Below are positions 5,325 to 53,350 of a stretch of 55,500 nt of DNA, in pieces. The notes under the pieces were generated by a model. The model saw nothing but the letters and a program-made list of their open reading frames with translations. It had not been told where the DNA came from and ran no database searches. This DNA comes from Prochlorococcus sp. AG-418-I21. GTDB taxonomy: Bacteria; Cyanobacteriota; Cyanobacteriia; PCC-6307; Cyanobiaceae. A program made the translations under genes and the position numbers. The DNA is taken from positions 1-55,500 of the forward strand of contig QCMA01000006.1 in assembly GCA_003214115.1 (NCBI GenBank). The letters run 5' to 3'. Each line of letters opens with the position of its first letter. The first letter of the stretch is position 1.

Positions 5325-5981
5325 CTAGTTTGTTTGCATTGATGCAACCTCTTCAGCAAAGTCCATCTGATTTTTTTCAATACCTTCACCCAATGTATAT
5401 CTTGTAAAGCGTCTTACTTTGATATTTTCTCCAATTTTTGCAGCTGCTTGTTTAACAAGGTCCTCTACTGTTAAAGAACTATCTTTAATGTAGGGTTGTG
5501 AAAGCAAAACAAGCTCATTAAGTCTTTTTGCTATTCTCCCTTCAACTATTTTTTCTTTAATTTGTTCTGGTTTCCCTGACAAATCATCCCTACCCATTTC
5601 AATCTGTTTTTCTTTTTTAACAACATCTTCTGGTATTTCATCAATTGATACGTACTCAACATTTGGGCATGCTGCTACTTGCATTGAGACATCTTTCAAC
5701 AGAGATTGGAATATATCACCTCTAGCGACGAAATCAGTTTCACAATTTAACTCTAGTAAAACTCCCACTCTTGATCCAGTATGTATATAACTTCCAATTG
5801 ATCCTTCGGCGGCTACTCTTCCCGATTTCTTCTCAGCACTAGCTATGCCTTTCTTTCTTAACCATTCCAAAGCTTTATCTAGATTTCCTTCAGTTTCGTT
5901 AAGTGCTTTTTTGCAGTCCATCATTCCTGCGCCAGTTTTGTCTCTAAGATCTTTTACAAGTTTTGCTGTAATGTTTCCCAT
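5325..5981 (-). CDS. tsf: Elongation factor Ts
   Basis: A 218-residue EF-Ts, the nucleotide exchange factor that regenerates EF-Tu-GTP. The N-terminal UBA-like module is clear: [19 protein letters not shown], with the conserved TGAGMMDCK. It is followed by [11 protein letters not shown], where the TDFVA loop contacts EF-Tu. The length fits the single-core form of cyanobacteria. It lies 45 bases downstream of rpsB in the usual rpsB-tsf order, so the two are almost certainly one transcript under the rpsB leader. Confidence 0.97.
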
Positions 5982-6026: not shown

Positions 6027-6731
6027 TTAATTTTTTCTTTCGGCATTAGAGCCCTTTCTACCCTCATTTATGGCATCTGCAAGTCTTCCTAAAATAAGTT
6101 GCACAGATCTAACAGCATCATCATTACAAGGAATTGGAACTTCACACAAATCCGGATCGCAATTTGTATCCAACATAGATACTAATGAGATATCTAATTT
6201 TCTAGCCTCTAATACTGCATTAGATTCTCTTCTCTGATCAACCAATACAACTACATCTGGTAGTCTTCTCATTCCCTTAAGTCCTCCTAAGTATTTTTGT
6301 AATCTTTCAAGTTCTCTTCTTAATACTGCAGCTTCTTTTTTAGGCCTCATTGCTATTGAACCACTACTTTCCATTCTTTCTAGATCCTTTAATCTTTCAA
6401 TCCTAGCTTTCATTGTTGTCCAATTAGTCAACATTCCTCCAAGCCACCTTTGATTTACATATGCAGCTCCACAACGTGTAGCTTCCTGAGCTACTACATC
6501 TGATGCTTGTTTTTTTGTACCGACAAATAGGAAACGTTTACCGCTTTTTGCTGCGTTTCTAGTCCATTTATACGCATTATTCATACATAATGCTGTTTTT
6601 ACAAGATCAATAATATGAACTCCATTTCTCGCGCAATATATATACTTAGACATCTTGGGGTTCCAACGTCTAGTTTGATGCCCAAAATGAGCACCAGCTT
6701 CCATCATTTCTGATAGTGATACAACAGCCAT
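6027..6731 (-). CDS. rpsB: 30S ribosomal protein S2
   Basis: The 234-residue protein begins with [19 protein letters not shown] and continues [23 protein letters not shown], the signature of S2. [14 protein letters not shown] and [11 protein letters not shown] are also diagnostic. S2 binds late to the 30S head and platform and is needed for S1 binding. The ATG at 6731 is fixed by homology. No Shine-Dalgarno lies at normal distance; a GGAGG sits about 22 bases upstream in sequence, between two halves of a possible pseudoknot (separate entry), so initiation is probably structure dependent. Confidence 0.97.
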
Positions 6732-6742
6732 AATTTAGAAAG

Positions 6743-6806
6743 AGTTTCGGGTTAGCCTCCATCTGACGGGGATTTATATTAATAGATCACCCGAAACTGT
6801 CAGATG
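6743..6806 (-). promoter_or_regulatory. rpsB leader with two interleaved perfect helices (probable pseudoknot)
   Basis: Read on the minus strand, the 75 bases before rpsB hold four blocks in the order A, B, A', B'. A is CATCTGAC (6806-6799) and A' is GTCAGATG (6767-6760), 8 perfect pairs. B is AGTTTCGGGT (6798-6789) and B' is ACCCGAAACT (6752-6743), 10 perfect pairs. A and B abut, A' and B' are 7 bases apart, and the crossing order is that of an H-type pseudoknot. A GGAGG (6761-6757) overlaps the end of A' and the short loop, and B' ends 11 bases before the ATG. Inference: S2 may bind this leader and control rpsB-tsf translation, as S2 does in other bacteria. The two helices might instead be alternative hairpins. 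Confidence 0.8.
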
Positions 6807-6859
6807 TGCGGATTTAATTTCAACTATTCTAGCAAGTGATGTGTATTTCTAAAAGTTTT

Positions 6860-47988: not shown

Positions 47989-48095
47989 TTATGTCTTCTA
48001 GGAAATTAAGTTTAACTTATATTTAAAATCCATTTCAAATTTCCTAACAAATAAAAAAAATATAAATTTTTTTTATTTCAAAAGCCAGCCTTTAT

Positions 48096-52819: not shown

Positions 52820-53350
52820 TTAAAATCTATAACTTACTTGAATCTATTAGATTAATTTTTGGTTTGAGAAATATTTTCATAGAGAAAACCGAATTAAACT
52901 TTTTTATCTGGTAAGGCAAAAATTAAAAATTTCAAGTTTAGATTGATTTTTCTTCACTATAATTTTCAAATTGATACATCATGAAAAATTTTTTTAAAAA
53001 TTCTTTATCAACAAGTGCCCTTGGAATAGATTTTTTTACTTTTTTCAAAAAGTAATGATCCCACAGTTATAACAAGAGATTATGATACTTTTTAAACTAC
53101 ATTTAATTTTTTTTTGATGAAGTATTAATACTTAAAATTTTCCCAAAAAAGCTTGTTTTGATAATGCTCCCGAAGAGTTATCCACTTTTTAAGCGTTTTT
53201 CAACAGGGTTTTCCACAATATGTTGATTAAATTTGAATTTCTATGTGCAAAATAAAATATTATCTTATTTCAAGAAAAAACTATCCACAATTTTTTTTTG
53301 GGATCACTATGATTTCGAATGACTTTTAAATAATTCTAAGTTCAAATCCG
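52820..53350. other. Gene-poor AT-rich stretch
   Basis: About 530 bases without a convincing gene. A 24-residue frame at 52981-53055 (MKNFFKNSLSTSALGIDFFT) has an ATG but no other support. The right half holds three DnaA-box-like sites. Long A and T runs make it bent and easy to melt. Confidence 0.6.
53178..53289 (+). other. Cluster of three DnaA-box-like sites
   Basis: TTATCCACT (53178-53186), TTTTCCACA (53209-53217) and CTATCCACA (53281-53289) all read in the plus direction. The second matches the TTTTCCACA form described for cyanobacterial origins; the others differ by one or two bases from TTATCCACA. The flanks are very AT-rich. No dnaA or dnaN is in the window. Confidence 0.55.

Follow-up and report, generated by a model that had tools for sequence, protein, structure and literature searches.

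The window analysed here, a 55,500-nt stretch of Prochlorococcus DNA, carries on its minus strand the gene for ribosomal protein S2 (rpsB, 6027–6731; 234 aa, ATG start), followed as the second gene of the operon by tsf (5325–5981), named from its sequence and position as coding for elongation factor Ts. Many named Prochlorococcus records among the matches listed in a protein comparison have an S2 protein identical to the one encoded here. The leader of rpsB contains, between 6806 and 6743 of the minus strand, two interleaved helices, A (8 pairs) and B (10 pairs), in the order A-B-A′-B′. All 18 pairs are of the Watson-Crick type, as the original prediction had described, and the helices do lie in front of a ribosomal protein operon. 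Strand A, the 5′ strand of helix A or P1 (CAUCUGAC; 6806–6799), is preceded by a conserved CGCA/CACA and abuts strand B, the 5′ strand of the pseudoknot helix (AGUUUCGGGU; 6798–6789), the distance between the two being 0 nt. The 21-nt loop L2 (6788–6768) contains the hairpin P3 and ends in a C-tract (CCCC, 6771–6768) that can also pair, at the base of P3, with the GGG of strand B. Strand A′ (GUCAGAUG; 6767–6760) comes next and is separated from B′ (ACCCGAAACU; 6752–6743) by the 7-nt loop L3 (GAGGCUA, 6759–6753). The conserved GGAGG (6760–6756) was found where it had been predicted to be, A′ ending with its first G and its other four bases lying in the A′-B′ loop. Its end is 24 nt away from the AUG of rpsB (6731–6729), and the 11-nt spacer between B′ and the AUG (CUUUCUAAAUU; 6742–6732) is devoid of any 4-mer resembling a Shine-Dalgarno (SD) sequence. 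The energies calculated for the isolated duplexes were -10.3 kcal/mol for A and -14.6 kcal/mol for B. A promoter-like site, TTTAGA-16-TAGAAT with a TG before the second hexamer, was identified at 6826–6853 of the minus strand by consensus matching only, a procedure that yielded three sites in 301 bases compared with a mean of 1.3 in shuffled sequences. An mRNA starting from this site would begin some 10–15 nt upstream of helix A.

The arrangement had been thought very unlikely to arise by chance, and this was borne out. In 20,000 rounds of dinucleotide shuffling, the 128-nt leader never gave two Watson-Crick helices with 8 or more pairs interleaved within 66 nt, which rules out chance pairing of A/A′ and B/B′; helices of at least six pairs each appeared in 1,039 of the same shuffles. 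The 8 + 10 arrangement occurs only once in the 55.5 kb window. The chance control also brought up another interleaved Watson-Crick helix pair (9 + 8 pairs within 67 nt) at 47999–48065. The sequence of A plus B (18 bases) had a single occurrence in the genome assembly (67.8% complete) when up to two mismatches were allowed. A terminator of the upstream gene was ruled out, no terminator-like site being present between 6700 and 7000.

A search of the leader region against Rfam, one of the checks that had been proposed, found no family reaching its gathering score, t44 (44 bits) included, although the motif itself has been published. When E-values of up to 10 were admitted, two minus-strand matches overlapped the leader, SNORD12 with 17.6 bits against a cut-off of 43 (E 1.4) and Ricks_sRNA10 with 16.7 bits against a cut-off of 97 (E 0.44). 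These scores are far under the cut-offs, and the two look like chance matches. Rfam as searched misses the rpsB leader in cyanobacteria. Elsewhere in the window, at 53062–53326 of the minus strand, the known cyanobacterial sRNA family Yfr17 (RF02365) was matched with 105 bits.

The original prediction had left open whether this form is catalogued. It is: the accessible text of Meyer et al. (2009, PMC2704228) describes an rpsB motif made of P1, P2, P3 and a pseudoknot between the P2-P3 junction and a 3′ extension after P1, names Cyanobacteria among its holders, with P2 absent or very short in them, and gives the pseudoknot five pairs for groups other than Firmicutes. The window element likewise precedes rpsB, has a P1 and a P3 and contains a loop strand that pairs with the 3′ extension of P1; as in the cyanobacterial form reported there, P2 is absent or very short (0 nt between A and B). 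Every feature that could be checked matched, namely the location in the 5′ leader of rpsB, the covariation of P1, the pseudoknot between apical loop and 3′ extension, the absent or very short P2, the presence of P3 and the homology to proteobacterial leaders (the covariation and homology are described below). The window element is thus the cyanobacterial branch of the rpsB motif, or S2 leader. Compared with the motif as set out in the accessible part of PMC2704228, the window's family differs in having a pseudoknot helix of 9–10 pairs, in lacking a downstream SD and in having a P3 that can capture part of the pseudoknot strand.

The conservation of the helices was analysed in 170 cyanobacterial rpsB leaders: that of the window, those of 80 named loci drawn from at least 581 loci encoding a relative, those of 29 loci, and 60 fetched stretches. 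Leaders L050 and L058 were left out because their contigs are truncated, and the 168 others were parsed. Both helices were kept in all 168, so that relatives in which A/A′ or B/B′ no longer pair, the case that would have spoken against the prediction, were absent from this set. A script anchoring on sequence alone found at least 7 of the 8 pairs of helix A in 165 leaders; L088, L160 and L171 were re-anchored by hand, with a shift of 1–2 nt, and helix A then paired in all three. Helix B comprised 4–10 contiguous pairs. The distance between A and B was 1 nt in 136 of the 168 leaders as scripted, a count that takes in leaders with a 10-pair helix B, since the script never returns 0 and these appear as 1. 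The element was followed directly by rpsB in all 89 fetched leaders of class members and in 78 of the 80 named loci, the two others being the truncated L050 and L058.

Compensatory changes, which the original prediction had suggested looking for among relatives, were present in both helices. In the 78 distinct rows of the alignment, 98.2% of the cells of helix A were paired and 8/8 pairs showed changes on both sides. For helix B, 89.5% of the cells were paired and five of the nine pairs had double changes; the other four (GGGU/ACCC) were invariant, partly as a result of their having served as anchors. The covariation score was 0.376, compared with 0.174 in shuffles (0/500 as high); slid controls reached no more than 0.088. 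Strand B formed 7.61 of 9 pairs with its own partner and 7.40 with a foreign one, which is only slightly better. Judged from these alignments, covariation argues strongly for helix A and, within the phylum, moderately for helix B. Between phyla, the pseudoknot core, read by eye, differs on both sides, being CGGGU/ACCCG in cyanobacteria, GGGGU/ACCCC in E. coli, Aeromonas and Catenovulum, and CCGGU/ACCGG in Sinorhizobium and Shinella (Rhizobiaceae).

Homology beyond the cyanobacteria was explored with a covariance model, R1, built from helix A and P3 only of 55 cyanobacterial leaders. R1 found nine leaders of the class that had been left out of its making (E ≤1.7e-7), as well as 5 of 11 non-cyanobacterial rpsB leaders (E 9e-5 to 1.2e-3), all of them proteobacterial: those of E. 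coli (E 2.9e-4), Aeromonas, Catenovulum, Sinorhizobium and Shinella. Of the remaining six, that of Bacillus gave E 1.2 and five gave no match. The decoys gave a single match, of E 2.2, in another part of the window; three 11-kb ribosomal-protein operons gave none. In a search of 292 genomes of the phylum, R1 matched 134 of 139 class members (some of which had supplied R1 training sequences), with one strong match per genome; G272 had a second, weak one (E 0.018). Four of the five missed members (L112, L149, L170 and L211) turned out to have the element when their leaders were searched directly, and the fifth, G243, gave no rpsB match. Among the 153 phylum genomes outside the class, no match was better than E 0.02, and seven weak ones fell between E 0.02 and 0.06. 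When 12 leaders from outside the class were searched alone with R1, L199 was clear (E 8e-6), L201 weak (E 0.017) and the rest had E ≥0.17 or no match.

The Rfam model t44 (RF00127), listed as an sRNA, matches the E. coli rpsB leader (positions 387–473 of L172), ending 27 nt before the ATG. Its cut-off was reached in none of 117 phylum genomes, in a search that did find the E. coli control; four matches below the cut-off had E-values of 1.25–8.8. Read by eye, t44 and the window element have in common the order P1, pseudoknot strand, P3, P1′, GGAGG and ACCCC. The homology of the window element to the E. coli rpsB leader is supported by the R1 match. In E. coli, S2 is an autogenous repressor acting on the rpsB-tsf leader, assisted by S1, according to the accessible text of a 2024 review (PMC10931766). 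The predicted pseudoknot in the S2 leader is real, conserved and homologous to a leader that S2 autorepresses; the further claim, that initiation depends on the fold, found no support, and the position of B′ in other members of the class, described next, points to repression.

The window's leader belongs to a family of 113 leaders (f1) which we take to comprise Prochlorococcus, marine Synechococcus and their kin; the other 55 leaders parsed came from other class members. All 55 of the latter had a separate SD-like sequence of four or more nt, ending 5–13 nt before the AUG, while an SD between B′ and the AUG was found in none of the 113 leaders of the window's family. Helix B had 9 pairs in 110 and 10 pairs in three of the family's leaders, compared with 4–9 pairs in other class members, and L3 was 7 nt long in 113/113 of the family and 8 nt long in 51/55 of the others. 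In those others, the start of the SD lies between -3 and +5 nt relative to the end of B′, and the SD overlaps B′ in 12 of 55, so a formed pseudoknot would block it. This points to occlusion of the SD, i.e. to repression. In the window's family, B′ itself sits where other class members have their SD. In L164 and L211 (G241 and G085; family f18), B′ leads straight into the SD; both helices are kept, with CUACGGGU/ACCCGUAG as B/B′, and GGAUU or GGUUU replaces the GGAGG.

Within the window's family, strand B has a second possible partner. The end of L2, just 5′ of A′, read CCC in 105, ACC in six and CCU in two of the 113 leaders. In the 89 Prochlorococcus leaders, C accounted for 70.5% of the bases at the four counted tract positions, compared with 1.3% of the remainder of L2, which is nearly pure A/T. 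When GGGU plus L2 was folded alone, the GGG paired with the end of L2 in 112/112 family leaders (73 distinct loops), compared with 21% when the loops were shuffled; one over-long loop was omitted from this set and shows the same pairing in another fold. In the six leaders with ACC, the pairing is in another register. Among other class members, 28 of 55 have the competing pairing and 27 lack it, which means that the motif as a whole does not share it. Minimum-energy folds without pseudoknots, computed for a stretch that starts with helix A and runs beyond the AUG, gave GGG-CCC plus helix A in 105 of the 113 family leaders and B/B′ without A in eight. The window leader is among the six Prochlorococcus leaders that favour B/B′ in such folds, and is close to balance: -19.1 kcal/mol with B forced and -18.8 kcal/mol with A forced. 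Other stretches of the leader favoured A plus GGG-CCC, in one of them by a small margin (-18.8 kcal/mol, compared with -17.8 kcal/mol when A was forbidden). The GGG-CCC pairs are unable to covary, since the GGG/GGGU of strand B was invariant in the rows counted. For the P3 helix, covariation within Prochlorococcus was weak (25/500 shuffles scored as high, and a slide of -1 was nearly as good). As modelled by these folds, the competing pairing is a conserved possibility in the window's family.

Taken as a whole, these observations are best explained, with a probability of roughly 0.7, by an S2 leader that acts as a two-state switch, S2 repressing rpsB-tsf through a closed pseudoknot. Helix A would provide a constant scaffold, and strand B would have two mutually exclusive partners, the C-tract and B′. 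In the open state, the GGG of B and the C-tract before A′ would lengthen P3, leaving B′ and the start region single-stranded, and ribosomes would load independently of an SD. In the closed state, B would pair with B′ to form the pseudoknot, its 9–10 bp helix ending, in the window's family, 7–15 nt before the AUG. Such a distance falls inside the usual footprint of the 30S subunit. Free S2, perhaps together with S1 as in E. coli, would bind the pseudoknot with its conserved CAC, GGUG and GGAGG and keep the closed state, thereby repressing rpsB and, by coupling, tsf. That S2 is the ligand, that it represses rather than activates, and that the leader alternates between two states we infer from the homology, the position of B′ and the competing pairing. 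Simple occlusion is not established in E. coli, where, according to the accessible text of the 2024 review, the SD and the start codon lie outside the S2 operator and the mechanism is unclear (PMC10931766). With A and B 0–1 nt apart and helix B 9–10 bp long, classical stacking of B on A would not be expected; the helices may lie side by side or have their end pairs open, and both are perhaps never complete at once.

It is also possible, though less likely, that the S2 leader works without a switch, the pseudoknot being the resting fold to which S2 binds and the C-tract merely lengthening P3. The S2-leader core is common to this reading and to the two-state switch, so the likelihoods given to the two are not exclusive of each other. 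The known motif is described with P1, P2, P3 and a standing pseudoknot in the accessible text of PMC2704228; the stability of the isolated helices and the 27 class members lacking the competing pairing point the same way. Against it stand the retention of the C-tract in Prochlorococcus loops that are otherwise almost pure A/T, and the pairing of the tract with the GGG in every family leader folded, allowing for the other register of the six ACC forms.

The GGAGG was found between A′ and B′ in 112 of the 113 leaders of the family and in 48 of the 55 other class members, where it stands beside a separate SD, and, read by eye, at the same place in 7 of the 11 non-cyanobacterial leaders (E. coli, Aeromonas, Catenovulum, Sinorhizobium, Shinella, Bacillus and Acetoanaerobium). 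Within the window's family, 19–27 nt separate its end from the AUG. L088 and L160 carry a compensated change of the first pair of helix A, from C-G to U-A, that turns the GGAGG into AGAGG, the pairing being kept and the SD-like sequence lost. Since it is kept beside separate SDs and in non-cyanobacterial leaders, and is sacrificed for pairing in L088 and L160, the GGAGG is more likely an element of the operator, perhaps serving in recognition, than an ordinary SD. A GGAGG lying within the rpsB motif is easily mistaken for a ribosome-binding site.

Of the window ORFs of at least 120 aa, 4/40 had an SD, the same number as in a control position; there being no excess, an SD is not required in general. 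The S10-operon ORFs of two Prochlorococcus genomes carried an SD in 10/20 and 9/19 cases (controls, 2 and 2). The figures were less clear for a third family member (7/18; control, 3), and were 10/18, 7/19 and 9/19 for three other class members (controls, 1, 0 and 2). These ORFs were taken mechanically from the first ATG, so some of their starts will be wrong. A genome-wide absence of SDs as the cause of the SD loss in rpsB was rejected as half an explanation, the S10-operon ORFs of the two Prochlorococcus genomes carrying SDs.

Two further readings assign the GGAGG a part in initiation. In the first, which is rather unlikely, the longer pseudoknot helix of the window's family has replaced the SD in an SD-less two-state switch, the operator's GGAGG being the first landing place of the 30S subunit and one fold both recruiting and repressing. 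The second, that of the original prediction, takes the GGAGG for a working SD which the pseudoknot brings to the start codon, the fold being required for initiation. The GGAGG is the sole SD-like sequence near the AUG in the family, none lying downstream in 113/113 leaders, and SDs seem to be used in the S10 operons of the two Prochlorococcus genomes. The retention of the GGAGG in class members with an SD of their own and in E. coli, its distance from the AUG, the AGAGG of one Prochlorococcus leader (L088) and the dispensability of SDs suggested by the window ORFs nevertheless make this reading improbable. Also improbable is a ligand other than S2 (EF-Ts, S1, a small molecule or an sRNA), for although S1 assists S2 in E. 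coli, the relative of the element there is controlled by S2 (both from the accessible text of PMC10931766), and the element precedes rpsB in every fetched class-member leader, each genome having one strong match to the model.

The element and its presence in Cyanobacteria being already known from the rpsB motif of 2009 (PMC2704228, accessible part), the core of the two-state switch proposed here, the S2 leader itself, is not a discovery as such. Among the openly licensed PMC papers listed in the literature searches, no report was found of SD loss or of a competing pairing in the S2 leader. What is added is a natural comparison within one class, in which the same S2 operator is found with an SD (55/55 leaders outside the family) and without one (0/113 inside it), which makes the block of initiation by S2, a mechanism still called unclear for E. 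coli in the accessible text of the 2024 review (PMC10931766), amenable to testing.

Some leaders of more distant organisms show other arrangements. Five of the fetched rpsB leaders from outside the class (L204, L205, L207, L208 and L209; f31) have a different conserved stretch, approximately TTACACTNGTCTGATAGG...GCCCTAGTC...TAGCCCGTAGTACAA or variants thereof, which may be an S2 leader that has diverged, or a different element; the matches of R1 to these leaders were unconvincing (E 0.17 or worse). L183, L185, L199, L200, L201, L203 and L206, from Bacillus, Acetoanaerobium and deep-branching relatives, share, as read by eye, a CACAC preceding P1 and either GCGGAGG or GACGGAGG following it; their pseudoknot strand is short or not clearly recognisable. 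CAC and GGAGG may be older than the long pseudoknot.
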